NCBI GenBank assembly: GCA_026929865.2
Contig: CM049395.1
Location: forward strand, 14,877,001-14,941,000
Source: Hyperoplus lanceolatus
Lineage: Eukaryota; Chordata; Actinopteri; Uranoscopiformes; Ammodytidae
DNA length: 64,000 bases
Direction of reading: 5' to 3'
The notes under the pieces are model-generated. The model saw only the letters and a program-made list of their open reading frames with translations, had not been told where the DNA came from and did no database searches. Made by a program: the position numbers and the translations under genes. Shown here piece by piece: positions 2,625 through 34,808 of the stretch (the stretch's first letter is position 1; every line of letters starts with the position of its first letter).

Positions 2625-3781
2625 CAGTTTTTTTTCAATCGCTAAACCACAGTGGGCACAACTGTAGCTCAATGTGCAAAACTCTAACTACAGTCGGCAC
2701 TACCAACAGTCATTGGAGCTGAACAGTTCACTTCACCTGCAAAACAGGTTCAGTGCAGCAAACACTATGAACCAGCCTCATTGAGATAACACACACTGTC
2801 ACTCAGAACCTGCTCAGAGTATAAACACTAGCATCAAACCCCAATACACAAATTACAAACTTTTAATCTTTACAGTTTGAATAATATGAGTTAGTTCACA
2901 CAAAGTACATAATATTTTCTTTGATGAAAGGGTGAAATTATTTCACATGAAATTGTTTATTTTATAACATACCATTTTTTTTAGGAAAACAAAAATAAAT
3001 GAAAATCAGAAGTTTGCTTCAATAGATACACATTTTGTATACTTTATTGAAAACATTTCCAAATGTAGTATTTATCTGTGTAAATATTCTAAAATTGTAA
3101 TACAGAAATCAATTCCTGTAATGTTGTCATTTACTGTAAGGATGCAACTCTAAGCTGTTTGTTTGCTGGAAAATTCGTATTACAGATGCAACTTTAGATT
3201 TTTGCAGATTGGGTTGCACTCTCAACCCTGCCTCTCTCAATGAGAGACCATGATTCACAACAGGGTCTATCAGTGTTGCCCTTACTGTATTTCATCAGAC
3301 ATTACAGCTCCATGTCTTCTAGGTCTTCCTCCACACATCCACACTCTCACTGCCACTCTTCTACCTCCAACAACCTGTCTTCCTTGGTCCATTTCCAAAA
3401 CAAAAATATATTTTTGAGCTTTCCCTTTACTGTATATATGTTCACTAACAAGTCTAAACAAGACATCTTAGTTTTTCAGTTGAAATTGCAATCCGCAGTG
3501 TTTGAAATGGATTCATTCTGTTTTGAATGTGTGGTTTATAGTTGTGGCAGCAGTGTGTTAGCATTTGAAAAAAGTGCTGGAAATCCACATTGTTGTGCAG
3601 GCTGTGGTTAAGCCATGAGATAGGTGTGTAGAGTTTTGAAAGTTGTGTATAAGCAATGAAAAACGAGCTAAAACGAGCTACAGTTTGGTCCGAATGAAGC
3701 GCTGCTCTGCATACTGTTGTTAGAGTTTTGCACTTGTCGTTCCAGTTGTGCCCACTGTGGTTTAGCAATCGTAAAAAACTG
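2625..3781 (-). mobile_element. Decayed Tc1/mariner-type DNA transposon with TA target
   Basis: The ends start CAGTTTTTT and read AAAAAACTG at the right, with TA directly outside both (2623-2624 and 3782-3783). The inverted repeats extend imperfectly for about 70 bp. Both share CTAAACCACAGTGGGCACAA, followed by a conserved GTGCAAAACTCTAAC. The inside is mostly AT-rich, but the minus strand keeps a degraded N-terminal transposase segment at 3169-3368. At 1157 bp the element is shorter than would be expected for one with a full transposase, and the catalytic DDE region is not recognisable, so this is a deletion derivative. Confidence 0.85.
3169..3368 (-). pseudogene. Transposase N-terminal (helix-turn-helix-like) remnant
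   Basis: Read on the minus strand, 3368 to 3282 gives a basic stretch with GGRPRRHGAVMSDEI and then a stop. A shift of frame at about 3282-3284 leads into 38 codons (3282 to 3169) containing NHGLSLREAGLRVQPNL and ending KSKVASVIRIF. From general knowledge this resembles the DNA-binding head of IS630/Tc1-like transposases that are abundant in teleosts: a GRPR-type basic motif, then two helix-turn-helix-like segments. The frameshift, the stop and the missing catalytic region make it non-functional. The assignment rests on remembered family patterns, not a search. Confidence 0.7.
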
Positions 3782-5662: not shown

Positions 5663-6711
5663 TCATCCGAAATCGGGTCGCGGAGGCAGCAGCTTGAGCA
5701 GGGAACCCCAAAGTTCTCTTTCCCGGGCCACCTCAACCAGCTCTGACTGGGGGATCCCGAGGCGTTCCCAGGCCAGCGTGGAAATATAATCTCTCCACCT
5801 AGTCCTGGGTCTTCCCCGAGGCCTCCTCCCAGCTGGACGCTCCTGGAACACCTCCCTAGGGAGGCGCCCTGGGGGCATCCTTACCAGATGCCCGAACCAC
5901 CTCAACTGGCTCCTTTCAACGCAAAGGAGTAGCGGCTCTGCCCCGAGTTCCTCACGAATGACTGAGCTTCTCACCCTATCTCTAAGGGAGACGCCAGCCA
6001 CCCTCCTGAGAAAGCCCATTTCGGCCGCTTGTACCCGTGATCTCGTTCTTTCGGTCATTACCCAGCCTTCATGACCATAGGTGAGGGTAGGAACAAAGAT
6101 CGCCCGGTAGATCGAAAGCTTTGCCTTACGACTCAGCTCTCTTTTCGTCACAACAGTGCGGTAAAGCGAGTGCAAAACCGCCCCTGCTGCTCCGATTCTA
6201 CGGCCAATCTCACACTCCATTGTTCCCTCACTCGCAAACAAGACCCCGAGGTACTTGAACTCCTTCACTTGGGCTAAGGACTCATTCCCTACCTGTAATA
6301 GACAATCCATCGGTTTCCTGCTGAGCACCATGGCCTCCGATTTAGAGGTGCTGATCCTCATCCCAACCGCTTCACACTCGGCTGCAAACCGATCCAATGA
6401 GAGCTGAAGGTCACAGGCCGATGATGCCATCAGAACCACATCATCCGCAAACAGCAGAGATGAGATCTTCAGACCACCAAACTGCAACTCCTCCCCACCA
6501 CGACTACGCCTTGATATCCTGTCCATAAATATTACAAACAGGATTGGTGACAAAGCGCAGCCTTGGCGGAGGCCAACCCCCACCGGAAACGAGTCTGACT
6601 TACTACCGAGAACCCGTACACAGCTCTCGCTTTGAGCGTACAGAGATTGGATGGCCCTGAGAAGAGACACCCTCACCCCATACTCCCGCAGCACCCCCCC
6701 AGTATCTCCCG
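5663..6711 (-). pseudogene. Rex3 ORF, 3' part: rest of reverse transcriptase and C-terminal domain
   Basis: This continues the RT in another frame from about 6700. It carries LREYGV, the GLRQGCALSPILFVIFMDRI block, the catalytic FADD motif (SSLLFADDVVLMA) and KEFKYLGVLF. The C-terminal region has YGHEGWVMTERTRSR, RWFGHLVRMP and GRPRTRWRDYISTLAWERLG, and the frame ends LLPPRPDFG-stop at 5663. The join falls in a run of seven C (plus strand 6694-6700), where one base appears to be missing relative to the conserved reading. No other stop or shift is seen in the 3' part. A sequencing or assembly error in the homopolymer is an alternative explanation. Confidence 0.9.
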
Positions 6712-8847
6712 GGGAACCCGGTCATAAGCCTTCTCCAGATCTACAAAACACATGTAGACTGGATGAGCAAACTCCCAAGCTCCCTCTAGGATCCTTGCGA
6801 GAGTGAAGAGCTGGTCCGTTGTTCCACAGCCAGGACGGAATCCGCATTGTTCCTCTTCAATCTGAGGTTCGACTATCGGCCGAACCCTCCTTTCCAGCAC
6901 CTTGGAGCAGACTTTGCCGGGAAGGCTGAGAAGTGTGATACCCCGGTAGTTGGAACACACTCTCTGGTCCCCCTTTTTAAAAATAGGAACCACCACCCCG
7001 GTCTGCCACTCCTTCGGCACTGTACCCGACCCCCACGCAATGTTGAAGAGGCGTGTCATCCAGGACAGCCCTTCCACACCCATTGCTTTCAGCATTTCTG
7101 GACGGATCTCATCAACCCCCGGGGCTTTGCCACTGTGGAGTTGTTTGACTACCTCAGTGACTTCCACCAGGGAAATTGACGATGATCCCCCATCAGCCTC
7201 CAGCTCTGCCTCCAACATAGAGGGCGTGTTAGTCGGATTCAGGAGTTCCTCAAAGTGCTCTTTCCACCGACCGACTACCTCCTCAGTTGAGGTCAACAGC
7301 GTCCCATCCTTACTGTACACAGCTTGGATGGTTCCCCGCTTCCCCCTCCTGAGGTGCCGGACGGTCTTCCAGAAACACTTTGGTGCCGACCGAAAGTCCT
7401 TCTCCATGGTTTCTCCAAACTTCTCCCACACCCGCTGCTTTGCCTCTGACACGGCAGAAGCTGCAGCCCTTCGGGCCTGTCGGTACCTTGCAACTGCCTC
7501 AGGAGTCCCCCGAGATAACATATCCCGGAAGCACTCCTTCTTCAGTCGGACGGCTTCCCTGACCACCGAGGTCCACCACGGCGTTCGAGGGTTACCGCCC
7601 CTTGAGGCACCTAAGACCTTGAGACCACAGCTGCCCGCCGCGGCTTCAGCAATGGAAGTTTTGAACATCGACCACTCGGGTTCAATGCCCCCAACCTCCA
7701 CAGGGATGCTAGAAAAGCTCTGCAGGAGGTGCGAATTACAGATCTCTTGAAAAGAGGCCTCCGCTAGACGTTCCCAGTTCACCCGCACTACCCGTTTGGG
7801 CTTACCAGGTCTGTCCAGAGTCTTCCCCCACCCTTTGACCCAACTCACAACCAGATGGTGATCAGTTGACAGCTCCGCCCCTCTCTTCACCCGAGTGTCC
7901 GAAACATGCGGCCTCAGATCAGATGATACGATCACGAAATCGATCATCGACCTTCGGCCGAGGGCGCTCTGGTACCATGTACACTTATGAGCATCCTTAT
8001 GTTCGAACATGGTGTTTGTTATAGACAAACCATGGCCAGCACAGAAGTCTAACAACAAACGACCACTCGGGTTCAGATCAGGGAGGCCGTTCCTCCCAAT
8101 CACGCCTTTCCAGGTGTCTCCATCATTGCCCACGTGCACGTTAAAGTCTCCCAGCAGAACTATGGAGTCCCCTACAGGAGCCCCATGCAGGACTCCGTTC
8201 AGGGTCTCCAAGAAGGCCGAATACTCCGAACTGCTGTTTGGTGCATACGCACAAACAACAGTCAGAGTCTTCCCCCCCACAACCCGGAGGCGTAGGGAGG
8301 CGACCCTCTCGTCCACCGGGGTAAACTCCAACGTAGTAGCGCCCAGCCGGGGGCTCGTGAGTATCCCCACACCGGCCCGGCGCCTCACACCTTGGGCAAC
8401 TCCAGAGAAGAATAGAGTCCAACCCCTGTCCAGAAGTACGGTTCCAGAGCCAAGACTGTGCGTGGAGGTAAGCCCCACCAGATCTAATTGGTAGCGCTCC
8501 ACCTCCCGCACCAGTTCCGGCTCCTTCCCCCACAGCGAGGTGACGTTCCACATCCCCAAAGCCAGCCTCTGCCGCCCGGGTCTGGTCCGTCGTGGTCCCC
8601 GCCCTTCACTGCCACCCTGTAGGCAGCGCACCCGACCCCAGCGGTTCCTCTGACGAGTGGTGGGCCCATCGGTTGTAGAGGAGGAGTGTGTTGCCACGTA
8701 GCTCTTTCGGGCTGTGCCCAGCCGGGCCCCGTGGCAGACCCGGCCGCCAGACGCTCGCAGGCGGGCCCCCTGTCTGGGCCTGGCTCCAGCCGGGGGCCCC
8801 GGGCTTCCTCCGGGCAGGGTCTCTCCTCTTCTATCACGATCTTCCAT
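6673..8847 (-). pseudogene. Rex3 ORF, 5' part: endonuclease and start of reverse transcriptase
   Basis: This frame runs without a stop into a premature TGA at about 6673. I place the start at the first Met inside the element (8847, MEDRDRRGE). The frame stays open upstream to an ATG at 9045, but that lies beyond the duplication and belongs to the target DNA. Counted from 9045, residues ~160-405 are the endonuclease/exonuclease/phosphatase domain: [14 protein letters not shown] (299-304), SMIDF (366-370) and STDHH (393-397). The usual catalytic Glu region reads GLTSTH, which I remember as normal for this family. The RT begins near 630 with [16 protein letters not shown], then [37 protein letters not shown] and motif [12 protein letters not shown]. 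Codons after ~782 are out of frame. Confidence 0.9.
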
Positions 8848-9016
8848 GAGGTCTTTTGAACCATTCTTAGTCGGGCCCCTCACCTGAGACCACTTTGCCT
8901 TGGGAGACCCTACCAGGAGCACTAGGCTCCGGACAACACAGCTCTCAGGTTCACAGGGGCACACAAACCTCTCCACCACGGTAAGGTGATGGTTCCCGGA
9001 GAGGTTTCTAATTGAT

Positions 9017-10134
9017 GTCTGTTCAAAAACAGACAAAACTGTCACAATTGTTATCTAATTAAGAACGTGTTTGAGTTGCAAGCAAGCCTCAAATGTATTG
9101 CTCGTCAATTAGACTCTCCCACTAAAATCCTTATCCGCAAAAATCTTTTTCAACATTCTCGCGCATGCACACTCGAGAAAAAAAAGGGCAGGGGAGACAC
9201 ACACAGAGCAGAACTGGTCTAACTAGAGGAGAACATGTGTCAATGTGAATGAAATAGAATTAACATGTTGACGGGACGACTTTTGTAAAATGAAACTCTT
9301 TGATACTCGAAAAAGTTATTACGCTGCAATGAAACAATTCATAATTCAAGCAGAGCCGATCAGTATGATGGAGAAAATAAAATATATACGAGGAATCAAA
9401 TAGGCTAAAGTTTAACAATGTTAAATATCACTGTCATGTATAGTAATAAAAAACACATCAGTTCTGTGTCAGTCATCCATCCTATTCACCTTATTCATTG
9501 TGCTTGACACTTAGTGATTGGTGGGACCGCTGAGGCTTGGTGGGATAATTTCCCCTGACAGTGGGTGATATAGAATAAGGGCACGTTGTCCAAGACCCTG
9601 CCATTTAACTGACTCAGATATGTCACATTTAGGTCACAATGAGGAACAGTTATTCCCTTGTCCTGAGAGTGTTGCATTATGCCAGCACTTTAGAAAGCTT
9701 TCCGTTTCAAAATACTGTGAAATGTATTGGGGGTGGAAGAATAAGCATGACGGAAGTATTACATATGTATCTTTGATATGGCACATTATGGCATTGGATT
9801 TATCTGATGTATGTTTTGATAAGTAATATTATAATATTCCATTCTGGGTTGACTTTCTCCGTAAAAATGATTGTAATCAGAATGTGTCTCTTTACCATCA
9901 TTAGGGGGCAGTAAAGACCAAGAAAAAAAAAGCTCAGCTGCAAATGACACAAAATGCCAATTTAGTGTTAAGCAATAATTGCTGTACCTGAGATTTCTCT
10001 AAAACCACTGACGTCATCAATATAATAAAATATTAATATCCAGTCACATGGAGATCAACTCATACAATAATAATGTTTAGCAAATCAACTAAATATAAAA
10101 CAGTTGAATATAAAACATTCAGCCACAAACAGAA
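9017..10134. other. Gene-free stretch, nothing recognised
   Basis: AT-rich sequence between the LINE and a long CA repeat. No coding or repeat structure was seen. Confidence 0.6.
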
Positions 10135-19397: not shown

Positions 19398-19631
19398 AAG
19401 GCCTATTTCACCGGTGGGAATATGAAGGTGTATTGAATTCTGAGATCCTATGTAGTATAAATGTGATGTCACAGTAAGATAAATGTAGGGTTAGACAGTG
19501 GGACCATAAAACACTCTTTCTGCCTTTTCTCAGGCTAGGATGAACCAATTTAATTTTTTTTTGCACATTTATACTACATAGGATCTCAGAATTCAATACA
19601 CCTTCATATTCCCACCGGTGAAGTAGGCCTT
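19398..19631. mobile_element. 234-bp hairpin MITE with TTA duplication
   Basis: Two arms of about 68 bases (19398-19465 and 19564-19631) are reverse complements with a single mismatch (TATTTCACC against TACTTCACC), around a ~98-base centre. The ends read AAGGCCTA and TAGGCCTT. TTA lies directly outside each end (19395-19397 and 19632-19634), which fits the 3-bp target of PIF/Harbinger elements. There is no coding content. The near identity of the arms suggests recent origin or gene conversion. The superfamily is inferred from the duplication alone. Confidence 0.85.
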
Positions 19632-32445: not shown

Positions 32446-33047
32446 TGTCCTAATCCTGTTCTGTTTTGCTTTTACAAATAGACTGCTGTTACAAATATTT
32501 TACAAGCACTTGAAATGTGCAATACATGTGACACTGATGGGTTTATATTCCCAATCCTGGGGAATTGCAACAACATTAAATAAAAACTGCTCCTCTCTCT
32601 TTGATACTACTCTCTTGCACGGACCCAAACCCTCCCCGTCCCCCCTGAGCCAAAGAGGCCTGCATTTGACACAAACAACAAAGTTCCAAAGGGAGATGAG
32701 AGAGCTTGTTAATTGGAACACATATTCAACAGCAATGTCTTGGGAGAATGAACTATATCACAGTGCAAAAACAGCTAAACTTTCTCTTCTCTGGCTTGGA
32801 AGTTAAATGACTCATGAGGAGCCTGTTGCTTGCTTTAAGCTCAAGGTCAAGGTCAAGGTCAAATTTCTTTATAAAGCACATTTACAAACAGCGGGTACTG
32901 CCCCAAAGTGCTGTACAGGTTAAATTATAATAAAATAATCCACATTTATTAATGTGTGCACATTTATGTATAAGCTGTGTGCTCCTCTGTTGGAAGACAT
33001 GTCTTTTTCATCTTTAATCTATACATGTGCATGTTGTCGAGAAGTGT
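32446..33047. other. Gene-free stretch with one interspersed repeat fragment
   Basis: The segment 32838-32945 matches in pattern the repeat nested in element B (see 33474). Otherwise nothing was seen. Confidence 0.6.
32838..32945 (+). repeat. Interspersed repeat with AAAGTGCTGTACA motif, copy 1
   Basis: (GGTCAA)n-type units are followed by TTTATAAAGCACATTTACA and CCAAAGTGCTGTACAG. The same order recurs at 33474-33550. It is a familiar teleost interspersed repeat, but I cannot name its class with confidence. Confidence 0.65.
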
Positions 33048-33473
33048 TTAAAGAGGACCTATTATAGGGGAAGGTGGGGTGATTTGTGCATTTTGGAAGT
33101 TGCAAAACCCCTTGTTTCTAGAAAACCGTGGAAGAAATTGGAAATGTGACCACATATTTAAGAAGAGCCATCCATTTGACTCATCCTGTAAAGAAGGGAG
33201 ACACAAGGAATAAGATATAAGCACATTTAAGATCAAAAAACTGTGTTTTGCCTTTCAAAGTAAAATTTCCATGATCAAGGTTTTTTGATTATTGTGTCTG
33301 AACAATTATAGACACGTTTGAAAACATTTGACACATGTTTTAGTGCTTTGGTATGCTACACTTTGAGTCTATATAGTTAGCACAATGTCAACCCTAAATT
33401 GCTGCATCATGCCTATTATCCAAAATTCTGGGGATGGGGTGATTTGTGCACAAGGGCCTGGGTGAGTTATAAG

Positions 33474-33790
33474 TAAGTAAGTAAGTAAAATGTATTTATA
33501 AAAGCACATTTATGACAGTTTGCACTGTCCAAAGTGCTGTACATAGTGCATTCAGTAGGTAAACAATGAAGGTAAAATAACAATAACCAAAATAAAAGAC
33601 GTAAAGCCCATACATCCACATAAACACAGATAGTAGTGCAGAGGTAAGTAAGTAGTGCAGAGGTTAATGGGGAGGAAACACCAGGGTGTACATATGGGTT
33701 TTGAGCCTTGATTTAAAGGCAGAAATGTAGGGGGAATCACATTTGTCAGGTGGCAGTTGGTTCCACAAGCACGGAGCAACTAGTGCAAAG
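33474..33790 (+). repeat. Interspersed repeat with AAAGTGCTGTACA motif, copy 2 (nested)
   Basis: (AAGT)n, then ATGTATTTATAAAAGCAC, CCAAAGTGCTGTACA and a downstream part with GGTGGCAGTTGGTTCCACAA. The start parallels 32838-32945. It lies inside element B, upstream of the transposase tail. The boundaries are approximate and the class unknown. Confidence 0.6.
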
Positions 33791-33833
33791 TACATTTCTG
33801 AGAGTTGTGCCAGTGGCATGGCTGTATACGCTG

Positions 33834-33967
33834 GTCACCAAAAGAAAGTGATTGTCTACAGTAGCTCAGAAGAGAGTGACATCTCAATTCCACTTAACGA
33901 CACCACTGATGAGAGTTCAGATGGCCAGAAAGATGATGATGGTGACTTTGTCATTGTGACACAATGA
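33834..33967 (+). pseudogene. Pogo-like transposase C-terminal remnant
   Basis: An open frame ends with a Ser/Asp/Glu-rich tail. It contains KKVIVYSSSEESDISIPLN, then an acidic run and GDFVIV shortly before the stop at 33967. The stop lies just before the internal terminal-motif copy at 33969. In my knowledge, tails with SSSEESD followed by DDDGDF/V-type ends occur in pogo/Tigger-like transposases. The catalytic core is absent, and a nested repeat lies where coding sequence would continue upstream. The short and low-complexity match makes this tentative. Confidence 0.5.
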
Positions 33968-34808
33968 CGCACAAATCACCCCCACTACGTGGGGTGATTT
34001 GTGCGACAAGGCAACTTTTTTTTCCGAAAGCTATATTTCTTAAACAGTTTATTCCAGATCCAAAGTTTTTATTGCCAGGGATGCACAACATCCTGAAATA
34101 TATGTACATATTTGAGTTGGAGACATAACTGTCAAGGCCTCACTTTAAAATCACTTTGAGTAAAAAGTTGCACAAATCACCCCACCTTCCCCTACTACTT
34201 TTCTGGTCTTAATTTCTTGTTTTACACTGCTATAGAGCAACCTGACACGAATCACATCACAAAAAACTATGTAGATTTTCGGGAAGCTCTTTCTCTTATT
34301 TTGGCGATCCAGCACGTCCTGTCAACACTTGAGTGTGTGTGCTTCGGGCATCTCCGCCCACTCCGCCTGTGCTTCGGCAATCTCCGCCTCCCCCCCCCCC
34401 CCCCCCCCCTCCTGCAAACCCCACTCCGTTATGATTGGTTACCTTCCTTCCGGAACACTTTCAGAGGCGGGAAGCACGAGCATGGACCTATAAGGGCGCG
34501 AGGCAGACGCGAACAGGGAAGTGACAGCATTACCATACATGGAAACATCCGCGTGGTGACTTCACGAAGTTACATGCGACGTCACGTTCTTACAAAGCGT
34601 CTAGCCGCTCAGAACACGTGATTTCTTGGTTGAACAGCTAGAATAGTGTCTAGTGCTCTGCACAGACACCCCAGACGGTCAGCAGGGAATACGTCGAAAT
34701 GCATGTAAGTCATTATTTGATAATTTAGTATGGTTAAGCATGACTATGAATCATCATAACAACATTTATAGGTCATAAATGTCAAAAAGCATCATAGGTC
34801 CGCTTTAA

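Follow-up and report, generated by a model that had tools for sequence, protein, structure and literature searches.

The question raised by this locus is what kind of mobile element occupies positions 33067–34192 of the window (the whole stretch of 64,000 nucleotides analysed here), and what its likeness to a second element, at 879–1850, means. A first-pass annotation of the letters had described the former (element B) as sharing the blueprint of the latter (element A) and not its sequence, and had suggested that the two represent an undescribed group of pogo/mariner-like elements defined by iterated cores. Here, we consider it likely that B is a non-autonomous element of the cut-and-paste type, inserting at TA, which has lost most of its transposase gene and keeps two pogo-type cis-acting arms, in which the inner cores would be transposase sites.

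Element B is 1126 bases long and has TA on both sides (33065–33066 and 34193–34194, both unstranded). Its ends are 24-bp perfect inverted repeats: the left one, GGGGAAGGTGGGGTGATTTGTGCA (33067–33090, + strand), contains the core at position 10, and the right one (34169–34192, − strand) is its perfect complement. If the target duplication is counted (TA + GGGGAAGGTGGGGTGATTTGTGCA), the perfect inverted arms extend to 26 bp. The core, GGGGTGATTTGTGC, is present five times and on both strands, at 33076(+), 33436(+), 33969(−), 33991(+) and 34170(−), which confirmed the annotated TA-flanked element with a core repeated inside in both orientations. The left inner core (33436–33449, +) lies at position 370 from the left end. 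Two further cores stand head to head around a 3-bp spacer in an inner palindrome (33965–34008, unstranded), with G-runs 211 and 202 from the right end. The inner hairpin noted earlier at 33969–34004 is therefore real and was drawn slightly too narrow, as its 18-nt arms reach from 33965–33982 to 33991–34008.

The interval from the left inner core to the palindrome of B contains two segments that were absent from the first-pass annotation. The first is a captured, 5′-truncated LINE 3′ end with an (AAGT)n tail (33469–33815, − strand, boundaries approximate), which is also carried by the aligned full-length copies; its identity as a LINE, antisense in B, is probable from the translation. A second copy of this 3′ end is found outside B, at 32858–32917, and the probable LINE end inside B has been spread by B into many copies. 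When a LINE-free relative of B was sought with a left-arm pattern, two places were found and the LINE tail was present in both. The second segment is a transposase-like C-terminal coding remnant (33824–33967, +; KKVIVYSSSEESD...GDFVIV), located between the LINE 3′ end and the palindrome. Its translation, KKVIVYSSSEESDISIPLNDTTDESSDGQKDDDGDFVIV, looks like an acidic transposase C-terminus; it gave no Pfam match, being unlike any Pfam model and unlike the zinc-finger ends of the C-clade transposases found in this genome (family C is described below). B is short, lacks an intact transposase and has terminal inverted repeats (TIRs), a target duplication and many similar copies, as is characteristic of MITE-like non-autonomous DNA transposons.

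We assessed the cores of both elements against dinucleotide shuffles. With up to 4 mismatches allowed, three interior core matches were found in B versus a mean of 0.29, and five in A versus a mean of 0.07; these counts were reached in none of 200 shuffles in either case. Scanned loosely over the whole window (up to 3 mismatches), the B core gave five matches, a number reached in 12 of 100 shuffles and not unusual by itself. The significance of B's cores is in their near-identity and placement, and not in the loose count over the whole window.

The genome (807 Mb) contains 3,963 matches to the B ends (1988 + 1975, up to 2 mismatches) and none to the reversed pattern; in viral contigs no exact match to either end pattern was found. 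We aligned 53 copies (the 8 best genome matches, 38 from the end list of contig 1 and 7 others), for which exact TA and TIR were required at both ends, so that TIR conservation and TA flanks in this set are due to selection; two long copies (L009 and L010) were excluded. Median divergence from the consensus was 0.44%, and 0.45% in the 38 contig-1 copies alone. The left inner core was unbroken in 51 of the 53 copies, so the internal cores are not a peculiarity of the window copy. When the flanks of B copies were joined in silico as a test for empty sites, 12 matches spanning the junction were obtained, two of them gapless and the other 10 with 1–5 gaps. The gapless ones belong to the window copy (98.8% over 170 bases, the joined flanks matching an uninterrupted repeat in L057) and to the copy L018 (97.4% over 229 bases), and they show that one TA was turned into two upon insertion. 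B is a young and very successful non-autonomous transposon.

Element A (879–1850, +) is a TA-flanked, 972-base, non-autonomous pogo derivative with the TIR GGGGAGACCGGGGGCAATTGTAACA and eight cores, of which seven read GGGGGCAATTGTAACA and one has two mismatches. Its end was taken as 1851 in the similarity and shuffle tests, and as 1850 for the core positions and the spacing test. A ends are found 86 + 73 times in the genome (up to 2 mismatches; reversed pattern 0). The coding relatives of A were sought with the PF03184 profile (matches at 23 places, 27 candidates scored) and with the family C transposase as a query (39 matches, 51 candidates scored). In L089, an ORF matching the C transposase (E 1.6e-32) is followed, starting 21 bases to its 3′ side, by DNA that matches the right half and right TIR of A (576 aligned bases, 79% identity, E 2.8e-150). 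L090 and L091 have a left end 77.6% identical to the left 58 bp of A, with transposase pieces inside, and L090 matches the C transposase query. The PF03184 locus L079 shows 73% identity to the left 71 bp of A, and in L084, a further PF03184 match, positions 441–907 of A are found downstream of the transposase frames (E 1.6e-132); A-type ends (2 mismatches) flank this last gene about 8.3 kb apart, the stretch between them having been read in part. Since pogo-type transposase sequences at these loci have A-like flanks, A is, by its sequence, a pogo derivative and belongs with the transposases of the PF03184 clade.

Family C is represented by a TA-flanked element of 2675 bp (L069) with the ends GGGGAGAACGGGGTAATTTGTCACA and GGGGAGAACGGGGTAAGTAGGCACA and palindromes of a related core close to both of them. 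It has a 473-aa transposase frame with a PF03184 match (E 1.2e-20) and the DD35D signature, which is also present in L073. A second frame overlaps the end of the first, thus the copy may be broken or spliced; by eye this frame has a zinc-finger-like tail, which gave no Pfam match. A pattern of related ends, from which the exact A and B ends were excluded, matched exactly at 719 + 795 places (reversed pattern, 0); the 100 that were listed belong to C, and the others may include members of a further family, D. In C and D, four interior cores each were counted, a number that 0 of 200 shuffles reached. Two shorter C elements are internal deletion derivatives: L097 (944 bp) has a 411-bp left and a 346-bp right arm, and L098 (867 bp) a 329-bp left and a 349-bp right arm, in both cases with 186 bp of the transposase C-terminal region in between. 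As read from these sequences, the construction of B is that of the C derivatives with a LINE added.

In order to compare the families, the position of each core was expressed as the distance of its G-run edge from the nearest end, with the strand as the sign. For A, the cores are located at L+10, +26, +366 and −400, and at R−230, −208, +201 and −10; for B, at L+10 and +370, and at R−211, +202 and −10. The corresponding values are L+10, +26, +369, +393, −424 and R−230, −208, +202, −10 in C (L069), and L+10, +26, +366, −400 and R−213, −191, −10 in D (L090). The right arm of L089 has R−208, +201 and −10. A left end assigned to a family E (L081), examined after the pattern had been noticed, has L+27, +367 and −411, with the terminal core not found within 5 mismatches. 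The layout varies in its completeness: B has neither the tandem core nor the left (−) core, D is without the right (+) core, and the C copy L098 is without the left inner cores. Up to 5 mismatches were allowed for cores in C and E; in C, L+369 and R−208 have 4 mismatches each, and a middle match that was not placed has 5, so that some of these weaker cores may be chance matches. A stricter scan missed L+369 and R−208 of C, in which case one of the three inner cores of B lies within 4 bases of a C core. The agreement between B and A (370/366, −211/−208, +202/+201) is independent of them.

When three cores were placed at random, a fit to A as good as that of B was obtained in 4 of 300,000 draws, or in 51 of 300,000 if the palindrome was moved as one unit; against C, the figures were 3 and 35 of 300,000, respectively. 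The distance tolerances in these tests, 4 for the comparison with A and 3 for that with C, were chosen once the data had been seen. Thus, the blueprint shared by A and B is geometric as well as stylistic. The letters of the inner cores vary by family, and their distances from the ends are nearly constant. For A, C and D, which are related in sequence, the shared spacing is partly a matter of descent. The layout is not a general property of PF03184 elements of this genome, as it is absent from two other PF03184 families, the Passer-type elements L064, L066 and L068 (no cores near 370 or 200; partial end repeats at 64–66 and near the right end) and L076 (likewise no cores near 370 or 200). L064 carries BrkDBD and HTH_Tnp_Tc5, and L066 and L068 appear near-identical.

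Sequence similarity itself gives an uneven picture. Between A and B it is at the chance level in the terminal 100 bases. Along longer arms it is weak, being attained by 1 of 200 shuffles for the left arm and by 10 of 200 for the right one; the statement that B does not share the sequence of A holds in this respect. For B and C, none of 200 shuffles reached the similarity of the arms on either side, and over the last 100 bases it was reached by 0 of 300 on the right and 10 of 300 on the left. With the cores masked, 2 of 200 shuffles reached the similarity of the left arms and 184 of 200, i.e., chance, that of the right arms, so that B is linked to C by the sequence of its ends and the positions of its cores. 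For B and D, the left arms gave 1 of 200 and the right arms 100 of 200 (chance). Family C resembles both A and B.

An autonomous parent of B was sought in several ways. B ends were looked for in about 1.5 kb around each of the 23 PF03184 matches and in eight further loci matching the C transposase, and among these only L072 has one. Its 378-aa PF03184 ORF was rejected as the parental gene, since this is a separate B copy near another pogo copy. At L072 the B copy lies about 120 bases from a pogo-type transposase frame of a different element, whose paralogue L080 has a weak PHD-finger match below the cut-off. The two long copies with widely spaced B ends, L009 and L010, were rejected as well, being B copies with later insertions; the insertion in L009 resembles a Tc1 element. 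With the 45-aa remnant of B as the query, the best 150 of 3,997 candidates all matched it along its whole length at 100% identity, which is what MITE copies should give. A differently joined remnant pattern gave 200 + 208 places versus 3 + 1 for the reversed control, and the 100 listed look like MITE variants with small indels. A search with PF05225 gave four matches, of which L074 was the one inspected. Hence, around the PF03184 and C-transposase matches (with short flanks) and among the matches listed for the B-remnant and arm patterns, no autonomous B was found, and the pogo membership of B rests on its anatomy.

For this reason, we weighed the possibility that B is an ordinary MITE of another TA-inserting superfamily (e.g., Tc1/mariner), whose likeness to A would reflect convergence on G-rich ends and whose inner cores would be relics of end duplication or nested insertion. 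The outcome of the parent search, the lack of a Pfam match for the coding remnant and the near-chance direct similarity between A and B speak for it. However, the core distances agree between families, the B–C similarity exceeds all shuffles at the right end and on both arms, and the C derivatives share the deletion design of B; we therefore regard this explanation as unlikely. The best reading is that the layout of A, B and C is a variant of the pogo end architecture. Observed directly are the ends, the TA target, the copy number, the core positions, the PF03184-type genes in relatives of A and in C, and C derivatives keeping both arms. We infer that the cores are binding sites, that the inner ones matter for transposition and that the transposase of B was of pogo-clade origin. 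The proposed pogo/mariner-like group is largely supported, by the coding relatives of A, which are pogo-type, and by the coding family C with its similar layout; the gap is B, whose parent was not found in the searches made. Neither autonomous relatives of A and B in different superfamilies nor a lack of internal cores elsewhere, the two outcomes named beforehand as counting against the proposal, was seen.

How such arms may work can be outlined as follows. Each arm has a terminal core and further cores, often an inverted pair, at about 366–370 and up to 424 on the left and at about 190–230 on the right. The helix-turn-helix domain of the transposase is predicted to bind them. The inner sites could recruit or pair transposase, seed a multimer and draw the two arms towards each other; cutting would take place only at the outermost core adjoining TA, after the inner-site step. 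Sleeping Beauty employs its inner and outer repeats in this manner (PMC7827188). It is an evenly balanced matter whether this amounts to a pogo clade with a fixed multi-site synaptic scaffold of terminal, tandem and inverted inner cores, in which distances are held within a few bases and letters are family-specific. If so, specificity would evolve through concerted change of the cores, and separate transposon families would arise on a single scaffold.

A sister family, B′ (L049–L053; 1,503 first-look candidates, the best 40 scored), bears on this point. Its TIR is GGGGAGAGTGGCCTAAGTTGTGCA and its body is about 95% identical to that of B. Four of its five cores, the two terminal ones and the two right inner ones, have AAGTTGTG instead of GATTTGTG; the left inner core has the letters of B in L049, L050, L051 and L053 and one mismatch in L052. 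The right-arm cores are at R−200, +193 and −10. These changes seem to fit one protein reading all cores, and the step from B to B′ hints at joint core evolution. The right arm of B′ is 86–91% identical to that of B, and it may have been acquired in a single recombination. By letters alone, the interior cores of B′ are not above chance (2 matches, reached in 13 of 200 shuffles).

The inner palindrome is the main gap site in the 53-copy alignment of B. Its spacer is TAC in 19 copies and GTA in 12, and in the remaining 22 it is otherwise altered or deleted. Both TAC and GTA are found inside three haplotypes defined outside the palindrome (6 TAC and 4 GTA in the commonest), thus the centre was inverted repeatedly or exchanged; such switching is as expected for a cruciform-forming palindrome. 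Another reading is that the palindrome is a non-functional scar, left where two elements or end fragments met head to head at TA. This would suit the TA between its two cores and its deletion or alteration in 22 of 53 copies, which makes it dispensable after insertion, but it is very improbable, since A and C also have an inverted core group, in other letters, about 200–230 from their right ends, and B′ has one at 200/193, a distance that a scar is not expected to hold.

Among known systems, P-element and hAT transposons have subterminal internal repeats near their ends, as do the elements described here; they differ in their 8-bp target duplication and in transposases unrelated to those found here. 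The pogo superfamily, in the excerpts of its survey available to us (PMC7386202), shares the TA duplication, TIRs of at most 40 bp and, in family C, the PF03184 + DD35D transposase; TIR length classes are described in these excerpts and inner repeated sites are not, whereas the arms here have further cores at set distances. The Passer family, as excerpted (PMC9976928), shares DD35D, TA and a TIR under 30 bp. Its DNA-binding domain is given as BrkDBD + HTH_Tnp_Tc5 or HTH_Tnp_Tc5 alone (PMC7386202, excerpts). Assignment of C to Passer was rejected, as L069 has neither domain at E up to 10 despite its DD35D; besides DDE_1, weak HTH_28 and HTH_psq matches were found. The Passer-type elements of this genome, L064, L066 and L068, have different ends and are without the core layout. 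In the available portions of two pogo surveys and the Passer paper, inner core repeats are not mentioned for pogo or Passer ends, only short TIRs, and the word "subterminal" occurs 0, 0 and 1 times, the single occurrence being in a reference title. The Sleeping Beauty IR/DR arrangement, as described in excerpts of PMC7827188, shares TA insertion and outer plus inner transposase sites in each arm (predicted here), the direct repeats lying inside TIRs of about 220 bp. A and B have no TIRs of that length with two direct repeats each. In contrast to IR/DR, the TIRs of A, B and C are about 24–28 bp, the inner sites are mostly inverted pairs, and the left and right arms are unlike each other. For the core strings and similar end layouts, nothing matching was found in the literature searched, mostly outside subscription papers; to this extent the group may be called undescribed, and the families may already be named in Repbase.

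Should this clade depend on inner sites at set distances, it would provide another form of the outer/inner checkpoint of Sleeping Beauty, with mostly inverted sites. Such a need could explain why several hundred bases of both arms are kept in the derivatives (A 972, B 1126, C 944 and 867 in total length), and several cores changing together would record, in nature, the divergence of transposase specificity. The CENPB, POGZ and TIGD genes derive from pogo transposases (PMC7386202, excerpts).

Other mobile elements were also observed in the window. Positions 5663–9045 (−) are occupied by a LINE-type retrotransposon remnant, in which two frames encode endonuclease and reverse transcriptase domains. 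A short TA-flanked element at 19404–19625 is strongly self-complementary, with the ends TTTCACCGGTGGGAAT and one mismatch between them. A possible further element, at 2643–3764, is TA-flanked and has as its ends a perfect inverted repeat of 16 bp, AACCACAGTGGGCACA, whose two arms are separated by 1.1 kb.
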